Positions 3,928 to 21,895 of a stretch of 21,895 bases of DNA are shown here, one piece after another. Within the stretch, counting starts at the first letter, position 1. Every line of letters begins with the position of its first letter. The DNA is from a virus. The DNA lies in IMG/VR virus record IMGVR_UViG_3300017727_000194, positions 1 to 21,895 of that record. One strand, 5' to 3'. The notes below the pieces were generated by a model. That model saw nothing but the letters and a program-made list of their open reading frames with translations, searched no databases and was not told the origin of the DNA. The position numbers and the translations under genes are program-made.

Positions 3928-4104
3928 ATGACAGACGACAACTACCCATACGATAAAATATTTGATCAACCACATCCAGGTCTTATAAGGCAAGAACTTG
4001 TTACTTATACTGAACTTGATGGTCGAATTCATCGCACTACAGTCACCAGATCATTTTTTGGTGATGACTATAATGACTCTACAACCTCTTGCCCTATAGG
4101 ATAA
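3928..4104 (+). CDS. 58-aa conserved small phage protein, unknown function
   Basis: ATG preceded by TGGAG 7 bases upstream; stop at 4102-4104. The product has a Y/D/P-rich start (DDNYPYDKIFDQPHPGLI), a central beta-like segment ELVTYTELDGRIHRTTVTRSFF, and DDYNDSTTSCPIG at the end. This 'ELVTY...G.I...T.TR.F....Y.DS....PI' layout matches a small protein family I remember from T4-like cyanophages, but the function is unknown. First gene of a four-gene cluster of small ORFs under the promoter at 3880. Confidence 0.65.
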   Translation: MTDDNYPYDKIFDQPHPGLIRQELVTYTELDGRIHRTTVTRSFFGDDYNDSTTSCPIG

Positions 4105-4107
4105 ACT

Positions 4108-4296
4108 ATGTCACACCTAGATAAACTTTCTAAAGTAAACCCACAAATCAATATCGAACGCGCTGAAAATGGCTGGATTTTTGAAGCTTCTGGTCGCACA
4201 CACGACGATGATTGGAAAAACATCAAAATTCTTGTAAATACCTCTGACACCTTATATAAATTGATTGAAGAGCATAACGAGATGGACCTCGACTAG
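4108..4296 (+). CDS. 62-aa small acidic protein, unknown
   Basis: Starts three bases after the previous stop and ends one base before the next ATG. The sequence (LDKLSKVNPQINIERAENGWIFEASGRTHDDDWKNIKILV) looks like a small alpha/beta fold with an acidic C-terminus; no cysteine, no membrane segment, no recognisable catalytic motif. Tight packing between coding neighbours supports it as real. Confidence 0.6.
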   Translation: MSHLDKLSKVNPQINIERAENGWIFEASGRTHDDDWKNIKILVNTSDTLYKLIEEHNEMDLD

Positions 4297-4297
4297 T

Positions 4298-4471
4298 ATG
4301 ATTAGAAACGATAGAGATAAATACGAACGAATTATTCACCTTTTGCGTGAAATTGAATATGCTAGATCACAATTAGCACCACAAGATACAGGCCATATCA
4401 GCACTGCTATTGGATGGATGGAAAAGCGTGTGTCTGCTTTATCTGAAGAACTTAAAAAATCTGATGTGTAA
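4298..4471 (+). CDS. 57-aa helical small protein, unknown
   Basis: The ATG at 4298 is one base after the previous stop (TAGTATG); longer versions of this frame run back into the preceding gene and have no ribosome site. The product MIRNDRDKYERIIHLLREIEYARSQLAPQ...WMEKRVSALSEEL is charged and almost entirely helical, with two heptad-like helices split by APQDTGH, so a small helical hairpin or coiled-coil protein is likely. Its TAA overlaps the next ATG (TAATG). Confidence 0.6.
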   Translation: MIRNDRDKYERIIHLLREIEYARSQLAPQDTGHISTAIGWMEKRVSALSEELKKSDV

Positions 4472-4704
4472 TGACACCTATTGAAATATTTGAGTACAAA
4501 CAAAAATGGAAGCCTGGCTATGTAGTTAGGCTTCACTCAGATCTAAGAAGCAAAGCTAAAGACTATTGTAAAATTCAGATGTTCAAACATCAATGGGATG
4601 TTAACGAGTATACTAACTCCTACGAAGATACATGGATGTTTGAAAATAAGTTAGACGCCACTAGCTTTACAGCACAATGGGATGAAAGGTTTGTAAATCA
4701 ATAA
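4471..4704 (+). CDS. 77-aa conserved small phage protein, unknown
   Basis: Starts in a TAATG junction. The sequence MTPIEIFEYKQKWKPGYVVRLHSDLRSKAKDYCK...QWDV..YTNSYEDTWMFE resembles a small protein conserved in T4-like cyanophages (opening MTP.EI.EYK..WKPGY, then HSD and a Y.N.YE.T..F block). No function is known to me. Rich in aromatic residues; single Cys. It is followed after one base by the large two-domain oxygenase gene, so the small-gene cluster and enzyme block A may form one transcription unit. Confidence 0.65.
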   Translation: MTPIEIFEYKQKWKPGYVVRLHSDLRSKAKDYCKIQMFKHQWDVNEYTNSYEDTWMFENKLDATSFTAQWDERFVNQ

Positions 4705-4705
4705 G

Positions 4706-5827
4706 ATGAATAATTATTTACTTGATAATTTTAATAACAACTCTTTAGAATATGATAATGAAAAATACACGTTTGATAAGTATGTATTAGATATCATTCA
4801 AGAGGATTATCCCTATGTAGATGATTTATCAAAAATTCATACTCACGGACTCAGCGGTAATCAAATACTTAAAATTAGTGAAAAGGTTCAAAAATCTTTT
4901 AGTAGTTACGAATTTAGTACTATGATTGATTTGTTTGCTGCCGAATATCTCCAACCATTAATTGGAGACACAGAGTTTCTTGTCAAGAGGTATCCAACTT
5001 TAAATTTCGTTGTTCCTAATCAAGAAGAGATAGGTAGGCGTTTACCTTTTCATCAAGGTATTACCTATGATAATGGTCGGGGGCAAGGAACTATCTGGAT
5101 GCCTTTAACAAAAACATTTGATAGTAATTCTATGTACGTTGTTGACCATGAGAATAGTAAAAAAATTACATCCTTTGCTCTTAAAAATAAAATAACATTT
5201 GAAGAGTGGGAAAGACTGTGTTTACAGAATGCTTATCCTATAAAATATGATGTTGGGTCTGCCCATCTTTTTCATCAAGAAATAATACACGGAAATGTTA
5301 ATAATGTCACTGATAGCACTAGAATGGCTATTGATTGGCATATTCTATTAAAAGATGAAGAGTGTGGACGTAGGATTCCTGGAGGATTTTTTAGAAAAAA
5401 AGACGACTTTTTTACAACTATTTTAAAGAACGATTCTCGTCAAAGTATTATTTACCTATCATGTAATTCCGACTATGATAAAAACATTGTTAAAATACAC
5501 CAAAATGATATAATTAAAAAATACTGTGACCAAAACCAAATTAAGTATAGTTTCAAATTAGAAGAAAACGATCATTTTGCATGGCTGCCTTACTTAGAGA
5601 GCCTAATGGAACATGATTACATAGGCACAATACTTATGCTTAGTATATTCAGCCTACCTGATGACAAAGAACGAAGAAGTACAATACTTCAAAAAGCAGT
5701 AAAAAATAATAAAAAAATTATCTTTGCAAATGAATTACAGGTTCTTCGAGACTCAGAAGATATAAACAAGGTTGAGTATTATAGAACTTTTGCTGTCAAG
5801 AAAAAAGGAAAGTATTATTGGGAATGA
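4706..5827 (+). CDS. Fusion: 2OG-Fe(II) oxygenase-like domain + 'sporadic carbohydrate cluster' domain
   Basis: 373 aa, two parts. Residues about 75-215 resemble the 2OG-Fe(II) oxygenase of the 'sporadic carbohydrate cluster': RLPFHQG (H116), TIWMPLTKTFDSNSMYVV, then SAHLFHQEIIHGN (distal H195) and STRMAIDWH (R206). The family HxD is H116-Q-G118 here, so the iron-binding acid is missing. Residues about 245-370 resemble the partner protein of that cluster (LIC12192-like): IIKKYCDQNQIKY, SLMEHDYIGTILMLSIFSLPDDKERR, IIFANELQVLRDSEDINKVEYYR. In bacteria the two are separate neighbours in loci for surface carbohydrates; here they are joined. Family names are from memory. It starts two bases after the previous stop without a clear Shine-Dalgarno and overlaps the next gene by ATGA. 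Role in glycan synthesis is inferred. Confidence 0.6.
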   Translation: MNNYLLDNFNNNSLEYDNEKYTFDKYVLDIIQEDYPYVDDLSKIHTHGLSGNQILKISEKVQKSFSSYEFSTMIDLFAAEYLQPLIGDTEFLVKRYPTLNFVVPNQEEIGRRLPFHQGITYDNGRGQGTIWMPLTKTFDSNSMYVVDHENSKKITSFALKNKITFEEWERLCLQNAYPIKYDVGSAHLFHQEIIHGNVNNVTDSTRMAIDWHILLKDEECGRRIPGGFFRKKDDFFTTILKNDSRQSIIYLSCNSDYDKNIVKIHQNDIIKKYCDQNQIKYSFKLEENDHFAWLPYLESLMEHDYIGTILMLSIFSLPDDKERRSTILQKAVKNNKKIIFANELQVLRDSEDINKVEYYRTFAVKKKGKYYWE

Positions 5828-19399: not shown

Positions 19400-20186
19400 A
19401 GATTACTCACTTAAAGATATTGTATCCGCTGATGGATATGTACCTGAAAATCCAGAATACTATATGGAAACTAGTCGTATGGCTCGTTATCCTGAAGTAG
19501 AACTATGGGATTTTATCGAAAATAGACCTGATACTGAATGGATTAAGTTTTCTGAAGAAACAGGAGCTAATTTAACAGATACACATAACGCTGAAGATTG
19601 GTTTGTTGGTAATTTTGCTATCAACCAAGAAGATTTTATTCAGTTTATGAAAGAAAATAAAGAAACTTGTCAAAAGAAGTTTTACGAAGCTAGACCATAC
19701 CATACAGGTCGCAACGAGTTTACATTAGATCTTCCTATGAAGGTAGGTTACAACTCTATGAATTGTTGTGAATATAACTGGGGTCTCTACGGTGATTCTG
19801 CTAATAAACTAAAAGAGATTTTAGGTCGTGACTTTTTTGAACAAATTGGTATGGACTATGATACCTGTTTACCTAGGTTAATGGCTTATCTTCCAGGACA
19901 AACTTTGCCTTGGCACTTTGACTATTTAGGGGGTTGGGGTCGTGTTAATAATCATCTCAATTTTGATCCTGATACACGTCAATGTGATTTAGGAGAAGTA
20001 AAAAGACTACTACTAATGGTGTCAGACTGGCATTGGGGGCATATGCTTCAAATGGCAAACAGTTTTTACCCACGCTGGAAATCAGGGGATTTGTATGAAA
20101 TTCCTATGATGACCTACCACTTATCCACAAATGCTGGGATGAGTTTAAAATTATCAATGAGTTTATCAGGAGCAATGATACGATGA
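19392..20186 (+). CDS. 2OG-Fe(II) oxygenase-like protein (family member 8)
   Basis: 264 aa, TTG start at 19392, 7 bases after AAGGAG (19379-19384), overlapping the previous gene. Core: PGQTLPWHFDYLGGWG (H175, D177), VSDWHWGHMLQMAN (210-223), RWKSGDLYEIP (228-238), TYHLSTNAG (distal H243), with K253 in the co-substrate position, as in member 7. The N-terminal ~120 residues are acidic and aromatic (ENPEYYMETSRMARYPEVELWDF) and differ from the other members. Followed through ATGA by the racemase-fold enzyme, closing the oxygenase series. Confidence 0.75.
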   Translation: MDKDYSLKDIVSADGYVPENPEYYMETSRMARYPEVELWDFIENRPDTEWIKFSEETGANLTDTHNAEDWFVGNFAINQEDFIQFMKENKETCQKKFYEARPYHTGRNEFTLDLPMKVGYNSMNCCEYNWGLYGDSANKLKEILGRDFFEQIGMDYDTCLPRLMAYLPGQTLPWHFDYLGGWGRVNNHLNFDPDTRQCDLGEVKRLLLMVSDWHWGHMLQMANSFYPRWKSGDLYEIPMMTYHLSTNAGMSLKLSMSLSGAMIR

Positions 20187-20947
20187 CAAAAGCAATAAGA
20201 ATGCGTGACCCTGTGGTCAGCAATACAGAAAAAACAAAATATAACGTTGGCTGGATGCCCTTAAGCACAGATCCTGTTAGCGAAAAGGATGTAAGAAATA
20301 ATTTTAGTACAGAGAGATTTAATGTTTTCTTTCATAGGGTAGAATTTAATCCGCCTGTAACAAATGAAAACTTAAAAATGATGGGTCCAAGATTAGAAAA
20401 AGCTGCTAGTTTAGTTGCACCAGATGAACCACTTGACGTGCTTGTATATGCGTGTACAGCGTGTGCAACTAATTTGGGTAACGAAACTGTATGTGCAAAT
20501 ATTAATTTAGGACGCCCAGGGGTACCCGTAATTAACCCAGCACTTGCAGGAGTTACTGGTATGGAAGCTATTGGTGCAAAACGTATGGGACTTGTTGCTC
20601 CATACAATGCTGAAGTAAGTGATAGTGTTGGAGACCACTTTCAAGCAAGCGGTATTGACGTTGTAAAAACTGTGTGCATGGATTGTCCACGTGACTATGA
20701 AATTGCACGTATATCAGACGAAACAATGATAAATGCTTGTTTAGAAGTTGCGGAAGAGGATGTTGATGCAATCTTTATGACATGTGCAGCTTTTCCTGCA
20801 ATCAATGTTATTACTGAAGTAGAACGTTTGACAGGTAAATATGTACTAAGCAGTAACCAGGCAATGATCTGGATGGCGTATAGAACATTAGGACTTGATG
20901 ATAATCTTACTAACTTGGGTAAGTTGTTTGAACACCCAATGGTTTGA
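20183..20947 (+). CDS. Maleate isomerase / Asp-Glu racemase superfamily enzyme
   Basis: 254 aa, full length for the maleate isomerase / arylmalonate decarboxylase / EutA group. Paired cysteines are present: VYACTACATNLG (C91 or C94) in the N-terminal half and DAIFMTCAAFPAINVI (C201) in the C-terminal half, with VLSSNQAMIWMAYRTLGL (221-238) as the usual closing block; GVPVINPALAG and RMGLVAPYNAEVSDSV fit the repeated fold. Such enzymes use two Cys to isomerise, racemise or decarboxylate small dicarboxylic acids without cofactor. Coupled by ATGA to the last oxygenase, it may process a product or feed a precursor. Alternative: ectoine-utilisation EutA-like role. Reaction not fixed by sequence. 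Confidence 0.75.
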   Translation: MTKAIRMRDPVVSNTEKTKYNVGWMPLSTDPVSEKDVRNNFSTERFNVFFHRVEFNPPVTNENLKMMGPRLEKAASLVAPDEPLDVLVYACTACATNLGNETVCANINLGRPGVPVINPALAGVTGMEAIGAKRMGLVAPYNAEVSDSVGDHFQASGIDVVKTVCMDCPRDYEIARISDETMINACLEVAEEDVDAIFMTCAAFPAINVITEVERLTGKYVLSSNQAMIWMAYRTLGLDDNLTNLGKLFEHPMV

Positions 20948-21248: not shown

Positions 21249-21277
21249 TTGCCCAGCCGTTAATTTTTTGATAATAT
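21249..21277 (+). promoter_or_regulatory. Sigma70-like promoter of the large structured RNA
   Basis: TTGCCC (21249-21254), 17-nt spacer, TAATAT (21272-21277), transcript start expected near 21284. Confidence 0.6.
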
Positions 21278-21283
21278 CTATAT

Positions 21284-21787
21284 AGAAAATGAGATGAGGG
21301 ATCATCCTCCGAGCAAAATCAGGTTGTTTTACAGGTTGAACTGCGAAAGTTAAAGTCGGTCAATGATCCAACGGAGTCACGGAATGCGTCTCGCCCTGCA
21401 TCACATTTTCGACCCTCGCTCTGGGTACGAGCCGGATCTCTCCGACAACGAGACGCAAGGCACGGTGTTAAGATTCCCAAGCCCCACCTAGAAGGCTGCT
21501 TGTAAAAACACGCGGGACTAGGCGCATTGCACAACGCGCAACAGTGCAGTCGGCTCTGTGAGGGGCAGGGGGAACGACTTAAAAAACACCCCCCACTCTT
21601 TCATCGGGAGTGCTCCTTCGTGGCTGTCGCCTACCACCACTTAGTTGAGCACCCTATTGGCAAGGACTCTGAACTAGAGTTAGCATGGATTGGTGATTAC
21701 CAGAAACATACTAACAAAGATCCGGAGAGTTCATCCAACGAGCGGGTTACTGGGGGCTGCGTTGGGCTTCATAAGTTTACATTCTGT
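21284..21787 (+). ncRNA. Large GC-rich structured RNA (about 500 nt)
   Basis: This stretch is visibly richer in G and C than the rest of the window and holds no credible gene. It carries many exact complementary segments: a 5-bp hairpin GATGA-GGGA-TCATC at the 5' end; GGATCAT (21299-21305) with ATGATCC (21363-21369); GCGTCTCG (21386-21393) with CGAGACGC (21449-21456), enclosing CGGA-TCTC-TCCG; TGCAC (21528-21532) with GTGCA (21544-21548); GGGGG (21568-21572) with CCCCC (21589-21593), stacked on CACTC (21594-21598) with GAGTG (21608-21612); GTTAG (21679-21683) with CTAAC (21711-21715), enclosing TGGT-GATT-ACCA; CCAACG (21735-21740) with CGTTGG (21760-21765). Large ornate phage RNAs such as GOLLD and ROOL are the nearest known kind, but I cannot match it to either. 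The 3' end is assumed to precede the next promoter. Confidence 0.65.
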
Positions 21788-21816
21788 TTGCATTCTGCAT
21801 AATTTTTCATTATACT
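21788..21816 (+). promoter_or_regulatory. Sigma70-like promoter of a second structured RNA
   Basis: TTGCAT (21788-21793), 17-nt spacer, TATACT (21811-21816), transcript start expected near 21823. Confidence 0.6.
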
Positions 21817-21821
21817 GTTTT

Positions 21822-21895
21822 TAGAAGTTGAGGTAAGGGATAACCTTCTTAAAAAAACCCTCCGCAAAGTCTCAGGGGAAGTCCTGTTAGTATCG
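21822..21895 (+). ncRNA. 5' part of a second structured RNA (cut by window end)
   Basis: Starting at the same distance from its promoter as the 21284 RNA, this segment opens with a very similar hairpin: TAGAA..TGAG.T.AGGGAT.A.C is shared, with loop GGGA in both and one stem pair changed from A-U to G-C. The rest (CCCTCCGCAAAGTCTCAGGGG...) has no ORF and runs off the window, so size and identity are open. Confidence 0.45.

Follow-up and report, generated by a model that had tools for sequence, protein, structure and literature searches.

Comparative sequence analysis points to an uncatalogued structured non-coding RNA with its own promoter in a group of tailed phages

GOLLD and ROOL are phage RNAs that lie near tRNA islands and carry variable linkers (PMC12286853). 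GOLLD, which is often longer than 800 nt and rises at lysis, joins a conserved 3′ part to a less conserved 5′ part (PMC12286853), and ROOL is a large pseudoknotted RNA of unknown function (659 nt in the solved example). OLE RNA is also large and ornate but is bacterial, whereas manA, wcaG and PhotoRC-II, which are almost confined to marine samples and phages, are structured leaders of metabolic genes (PMC2864571). Here we describe RNA A, and the second RNA that follows it, RNA B, in an IMG/VR virus record of 21,895 bases (IMGVR_UViG_3300017727_000194, hereafter the window). RNA A and RNA B share with GOLLD the large size, the conserved 3′ part, the less conserved 5′ part, the variable linker and the tRNA neighbours, and with ROOL the pseudoknots, the variable linker and a similar length. 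However, RNA A measures only ~490 nt, or ~690 nt with RNA B, RNA B usually stands under its own promoter, and the promoter type and neighbours of RNA A suggest early expression rather than a rise at lysis. Unlike manA, wcaG and PhotoRC-II, RNA A is much larger and has no fixed downstream gene, and no Rfam match connects it with these leaders or with OLE RNA.

The region studied, positions 21284-21787, lies 108 bases short of the end of the record. An earlier note, made from the letters of the window, had described it as a GC-rich island without genes, dense in helices, with its own promoter, and possibly a member of GOLLD or ROOL or a new class. The GC content is indeed raised, being 0.50 at 21251-21750 against ~0.35 in the surroundings. 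The window carries two tRNAs, the nearest ~12 kb from RNA A, together with genes for an Hsp20 and a cell-wall hydrolase and many 2OG-Fe(II) oxygenase-like ORFs (the latter recognized by eye), a content as expected for a marine tailed phage. A search of related contigs for the major capsid family PF07068 gave no match, and the controls were likewise without match. Upstream of the region lie a 55-aa ORF and a maleate-isomerase-like gene of the arylmalonate decarboxylase/Asp-Glu racemase family (20183-20947), the latter an unusual auxiliary gene for a phage.

The first homologue, found by a search with a neighbouring protein, was contig L002, which is 98% identical and runs past the end of the window. 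Further homologues were recruited through the 105-aa gene downstream in L002 and with DNA patterns taken from conserved parts. Besides the window, 13 full-length homologues (L002, L004, L008, L011, L012, L013, L019, L020, L021, L023, L027, L029 and L032) and partial ones in L007, L009, L025 and L026 were obtained, all of them on metagenomic viral contigs, whose gene content and related contigs, rather than sample records, suggest a marine origin. They represent about seven lineages with 60-98% identity, RNA A being ~450-505 nt long in this phage group, and the 14 full-length copies including the window made up the alignment. Covariance models of the two ends of RNA A recovered relatives at E values of 1e-20 to 1e-41. 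The RNA is missing from L014, a related phage contig of 49 kb that does have the 105-aa gene. When the window RNA and the divergent L029 copy were compared by DNA similarity with 50,697 phage records, no match appeared, and within the limits of the patterns used the 5′ domain had 0 matches in 84,980 prokaryote species genomes. An RNA B pattern matched six times in bacterial and archaeal genomes with the rest of RNA B missing, which was taken as chance, as was a match in L030; a looser 3′-domain pattern gave seven extra matches in viral contigs, all within unrelated sequence and below 10 bits with the model where scored. No description of RNA A was found in the literature. Many independent contigs break inside RNA A or B or close by (the window end, and the starts or ends of L005, L006, L007, L009, L010, L012, L025 and L026), which suggests a strain-variable spot unbridged by assemblers or another obstacle to assembly.

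A sigma-70-type promoter precedes RNA A on the + strand (TTGCCC 21249-21254, a 17-nt spacer and TAATAT 21272-21277). The form TTGC(C/T)N - 17 nt - TATTAT-like hexamer is kept at a fixed distance in 16 of the 16 loci that include an RNA A start, in agreement with the promoter proposed earlier, and this constant distance places the start of RNA A near 21284, the A of AGAAAATGAG being the predicted 5′ end. Promoters of this form also stand before the 105-aa gene, before some other nearby genes and, in most lineages, before RNA B. As to the other end, the last conserved element is helix S4, which closes at 21765, so that RNA A ends near 21767-21770. A large structured RNA of ~500 nt, as supposed, is borne out by homologues and covariation, but its extent needed correction: 21788-21816 already is the promoter of RNA B. 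In L008 an intrinsic terminator (AAACCCTTTG..CAGAGGGTTTTT) stands directly behind RNA A, which indicates that RNA A can be a transcript of its own; on this promoter and terminator evidence RNA A is probably transcribed. Coding signal was sought on both strands, and no conserved ORF was found. Since reading frames are not kept and most indels between distant homologues are not multiples of three, coding on either strand was rejected, and the island is without genes for proteins, as had been claimed. Comparison of the homologous sequences establishes the + strand interval from 21284 to ~21767 as the gene of a conserved structured non-coding phage RNA with its own promoter.

The folding energy of the single sequence was of little help. 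Of 100 dinucleotide shuffles, 21 folded as well as the + strand of RNA A or better (z -0.79), so that a density of helices above chance was not confirmed, and the folding energies of the 3′ domain and of RNA B are for the most part just as ordinary. The antisense strand of 21284-21787 is more stable than its shuffles (z -2.9), although the promoter and terminators all indicate the + strand. As the energy scores are uninformative, the case for RNA A rests on comparison. The helices listed by the earlier note all exist in the window, namely TGCGTCTCG 21385-21393 with CGAGACGCA 21449-21457, 55 nt apart, GGATCAT 21299-21305 with ATGATCC 21363-21369, GGGGG 21568-21572 with CCCCC 21589-21593, CCAACG 21735-21740 with CGTTGG 21760-21765, and CACTC/GAGTG, the last in competition with a covarying helix. 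The 8-9 bp stem over 55 nt was ruled out as a conserved feature, being limited in the alignment to close relatives of the window.

In the alignment, RNA A appears as two conserved domains, one at the 5′ end and one with two invariant loops at the 3′ end, on either side of a replaceable middle that holds a covarying pseudoknot, and RNAalifold recovered the outer helices from the 14 sequences without input by hand. The 5′ domain (21294-21384, + strand) has the form GAGG-N-AUCAU-CCUC, whose AUCAU pairs with AUGAU 21363-21367 (P1), and a second helix, P2 (CCGA 21309-21312 with UCGG 21356-21359), alternates between CCGA/UCGG and CUGG/CCAG. In L019, L027 and L029 the N position sets C against C, which would suit an unpaired crossing base. 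The middle holds, on the + strand at 21478-21522, helices M2 (CAAGC 21478-21482 with GCUUG 21498-21502) and M1 (CCUAG 21487-21491 with CUAGG 21518-21522), the latter covarying (CCUAC/GUAGG, CUUAC/GUAAG) among lineages that retain the window-type middle. It is followed by the pseudoknot (21547-21593, + strand), in which GUCG 21549-21552 with CGAC 21575-21578 is interleaved with the GGGGG/CCCCC helix across an A-rich crossing loop (21579-21588). In L029 and L032 the middle (helices M1-M6 and the pseudoknot) is swapped for unrelated sequence; the 5′ and 3′ domains persist in every copy.

The 3′ domain begins with an arm (21610-21652, + strand) in which S1 (GUGCUC 21610-21615 with GAGCAC 21647-21652) surrounds S2 (GUGG 21620-21623 with CCAC 21637-21640). 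The S2 loop UGUCGCCUACC (21625-21635) is identical in all 14 alignment rows, and around it all four S2 pairs are doubly changed, with the variants GUGG/CCAC, CCUG/CAGG and GUCGC/GCGAC. Helix S3 (GGACUCU 21664-21670 with AGAGUUC 21726-21732, + strand) is paired in 100% of cells and doubly changed in four of six counted pairs, GGACUCU/AGAGUUC in the window being replaced by GAGUAC/GUGCUC in L029 and GAGUAU/AUACUC in L032. Helix S4 (CCAACG 21735-21740 with CGUUGG 21760-21765, + strand) closes over the loop GCGGG...GGGGCU and is 98% paired, with five of seven counted pairs doubly changed (CCAACG/CGUUGG, UGACCA/UGGUCA, UUAACA/UGUUAA). The two loops of the domain, UGUCGCCUACC and GCGGG(n)GGGGCU, are invariant, and the hairpins around them drift.

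These hand-picked helices are an illustration and not a test, because their arms were selected for pairing. Covariation was therefore measured on separate domain alignments, with 500 shuffles and a slide of the partner by 1-3 columns as controls. In the 3′ domain (A2), 92.9% of cells were paired against 75.7% when shuffled, both sides had changed in 15 of 23 pairs, and covariation reached 0.616 compared with 0.247 in shuffles (0/500 shuffles) and 0.09-0.18 when the partner was slid. The 5′ domain was paired in 97.3% of cells with a covariation of 0.218 (0.106 shuffled; 0/500 shuffles), and the middle pseudoknot in 94.5%, with 6 of 13 pairs doubly changed and a covariation of 0.443 (0.259 shuffled). 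A blind test over all 59,685 variable column pairs, whose null re-places substitutions on the tree, gave the top rank to a pair of S3 (E 0.05), followed by one of S4 (0.15) and by P2 pairs (0.28, tied with their own cross-terms), and no other pair reached E 1; a single pair thus covaries at E 0.05 and the others lie at 0.15 or above, with only about seven independent lineages known. The covariation check on homologues that the earlier note had called for came out far above the shuffled and slid controls, and compensatory base-pair changes beyond such controls are the general mark of a structured non-coding RNA. The earlier observation is right in substance, for reasons beyond the single sequence, namely that conservation and covariation exceed chance.

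The earlier note had missed that RNA A opens a cluster: another conserved RNA begins ~55 nt beyond its end. The promoter of RNA B (TTGCAT 21788-21793 and TATACT 21811-21816, + strand) was located by a promoter-pattern scan, and the 5′ part of RNA B occupies 21823-21895 on the + strand, where the window end cuts it. RNA B has 12 homologues and a full length of ~170 nt in L002 (~1357-1525). Its elements are a stem AGAAG/CUUCU with GGU/ACC, a pseudoknot AGGG 21836-21839 with CCCU 21858-21861, and GGGGAAG 21875-21881, which forms the terminator-like closing helix GGGGAAG/CUUCCCC ahead of a U run. Three of four pairs of the first helix are doubly changed, 95.8% of cells are paired, covariation is 0.231 (0.076 shuffled), and with 78% mean column identity RNA B is more conserved than RNA A. 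RNA A was found at every locus having RNA B and enough upstream sequence, and RNA B follows every copy of RNA A with enough sequence. In L012, L013, L029 and L032 RNA A runs into RNA B without an intervening promoter; elsewhere RNA B usually has one.

The A|B joint in L008, L011 and L023, and the joint between RNA B and the following gene (B|gene) in L010, L012 and L032, have taken up genes or tRNA-like elements. A tRNA-like gene (L012:781-842, L010 ~131-188, L008 ~4919-4980) has acceptor, D and T arms and no anticodon arm, with ~7 nt between the D and T arms and compensatory differences in the acceptor and T stems between copies. It travels as one cassette with an SGNH-like gene, joined in L010 and L012 by a normal tRNA, and is inserted at either joint. 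Behind the 105-aa gene lies a third long non-coding stretch, RNA C (L002:1943-2460; L012:2020-2500; L027:10004-10660; L029:2570-2923, - strand), ~330-650 nt long. It contains the conserved blocks GAGUCGGGGAWG and GGCGWGGYUGGUGGC, closes with an intrinsic terminator, and has the look of a further large structured RNA or of a 3′ UTR. The leader of the 105-aa gene (L002:1564-1625 and other loci) contains a covarying pseudoknot inside GAGG...CCUC, GGCAAU/AUUGCC in some phages being replaced by GGGAAC/GUUCC in others, a compensatory change. As read from the alignments, RNA A (GAGG-N-AUCAU-CCUC with AUGAU), RNA B (GGU-AGGG-ACC with CCCU) and the 105-aa mRNA appear to have a common 5′ design, a small stem whose loop pairs downstream.

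The 105-aa gene itself, seen in contigs extending beyond the window end, encodes a DNA-binding protein and has its own promoter of the same form as that of RNA A. The predicted model of the protein has four helices (pLDDT 78), a sequence search gave no solved relative, and nothing suggests RNA binding. Related contigs contain a relative of phrog_15752, a T7 gp0.7-type kinase shutting off host transcription (L013:7198-7872, with similar ORFs in L002:4130-4804, L012 and L027), and together with the DNA-binding protein it makes the neighbours of RNA A look like early or takeover genes. A TctA tricarboxylate-transporter gene (Pfam PF01970) adjoins RNA A in L013:2899-5051 (= L035:5702-7866, - strand) and in L029 (~4060-4500, - strand), with an apparent solute-binding partner just upstream, and is likely an auxiliary metabolic gene. 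Another phage contig encodes a PnrA-like ABC substrate-binding protein (Pfam Bmp; L037:3040-4101, - strand).

The earlier note had proposed a comparison with Rfam, and had named a match to rnpB, tmRNA or an intron as the finding that would speak against it. A cmscan of the window, L029, L012 (L017) and L008 (L018) with all 4227 Rfam 15 models gave nothing at gathering score within RNA A or B. Even at E<=10 these four divergent representatives had no match inside either RNA, GOLLD, ROOL, RNase P, tmRNA, group I/II intron and small-ribozyme models being covered; ARAGORN likewise gave no tmRNA match. A 15-nt tmRNA fragment (E 0.7) in L017 lies within a tRNA-like gene, outside RNA A and B. RNase P RNA, tmRNA and group I/II introns were rejected on these unmatched models, and membership of GOLLD or ROOL is likewise unsupported, ROOL also showing no sequence resemblance. 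The setting of GOLLD, a phage or prophage location near tRNA genes, does recur here: in L008, L010 and L012 the joints hold tRNA or tRNA-like genes. With homologues, covariation, a conserved promoter and no Rfam match, the suggested new class has gained ground: conserved in ocean phages, outside every catalogued family and part of a cluster of such RNAs, RNA A looks like a new class of phage RNA. Our verdict is a new RNA family within a known broad kind, the large ornate phage RNAs.

We consider it probable that RNA A is an uncatalogued structured non-coding RNA of marine tailed phages that acts in trans as a scaffold or decoy, a reading for which homology, covarying secondary structure, promoter conservation, the non-coding nature and the coupling of RNA A to RNA B provide the comparative basis. 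Judging from the promoter type and the neighbours (the phrog_15752 relative in related contigs), the sigma-70-type promoter would presumably be read by host polymerase early in infection, with RNA A starting at ~21284. The transcript would fold into the conserved 5′ domain, the replaceable middle, mostly with its A-rich pseudoknot, and the four-helix 3′ domain presenting the two invariant loops, and would open a block of structured RNAs to which RNA B, with its terminal terminator-like helix, also belongs. As a rigid scaffold or decoy it may serve host takeover by presenting these loops to a protein or an RNA of the host. Alternatively, the loops, which contain UCGCC and GGCGG (AGCGG in some copies), might bind each other as a GGCGG/UCGCC kissing pair within or between molecules, which stays a proposal because nearly invariant loops offer no covariation. 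The unexceptional folding energy and a middle third that is not conserved between the most distant lineages count against the scaffold or decoy reading.

That energy no better than shuffles would also suit a GC-rich relic or chance helices that are no gene, an explanation of negligible probability, as it is already excluded by the covariation; compensatory changes across lineages, the conserved promoter and the covariance-model matches of 1e-20 to 1e-41 all oppose it. That RNA A acts in cis on the following gene, as its long leader (a riboswitch or attenuator), is rather unlikely. In L011 and L023 the sole plausible start of the inserted gene is a TTG in the 3′ arm of S4, with the G-rich loop strand at the position of a ribosome site, so RNA A may be the leader of that gene there, and the 105-aa mRNA likewise starts with a covarying pseudoknot. 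The leader explanation is disfavoured because no constant downstream gene shares the transcript: at most loci no gene follows RNA A but RNA B with its terminator-like end, the next gene has its own promoter, the genes that do follow are inserted and unrelated, and 490 nt is long for a leader.

Ribozymes typically have pseudoknots and invariant unpaired loops, and RNA A has both, yet a catalytic role, as a very divergent RNase P RNA, an intron or a new ribozyme, seems very improbable given the unmatched models in four divergent members, the lack of exons to join and the replaceable middle third. By analogy with GOLLD and ROOL, RNA A and B could instead be two domains of one machine that builds an RNA-only multimer and has a conserved 3′ part, a 5′ part conserved less well and a linker that accepts tRNAs and genes. 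The constant co-occurrence of A and B, their contiguity in four loci, the higher conservation of RNA B and the tRNA or tRNA-like genes at the joints agree with this, GOLLD and ROOL also lying near tRNA islands with variable linkers (PMC12286853). Neither sequence nor structure matches these families in Rfam, however, RNA B has its own promoter in most lineages and a terminator follows RNA A in L008, and we regard the multimer as unlikely.

A broader, more tentative proposal, which we hold to be possible though doubtful, is that marine phages produce, at the start of infection, a new machine of RNA alone or of RNA and protein in which RNA A and B are two modules; this class of phage RNA would be unrelated to GOLLD and ROOL and comparable in architecture. 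If this were true, RNA A, B and C would amount to ~1-1.5 kb of ornate RNA per locus, with the joints as insertion hot spots for tRNAs and genes. Only a handful of large phage RNAs have been described, and their roles are unsettled; RNA A, with its covariation support, defined promoter, homologue set and two invariant loops, gives probing, pull-down and cryo-EM a definite object. Its existence would mean that ornate phage RNAs extend beyond GOLLD and ROOL, and that long structured RNAs may stand beside the genes of host takeover and not those of lysis.
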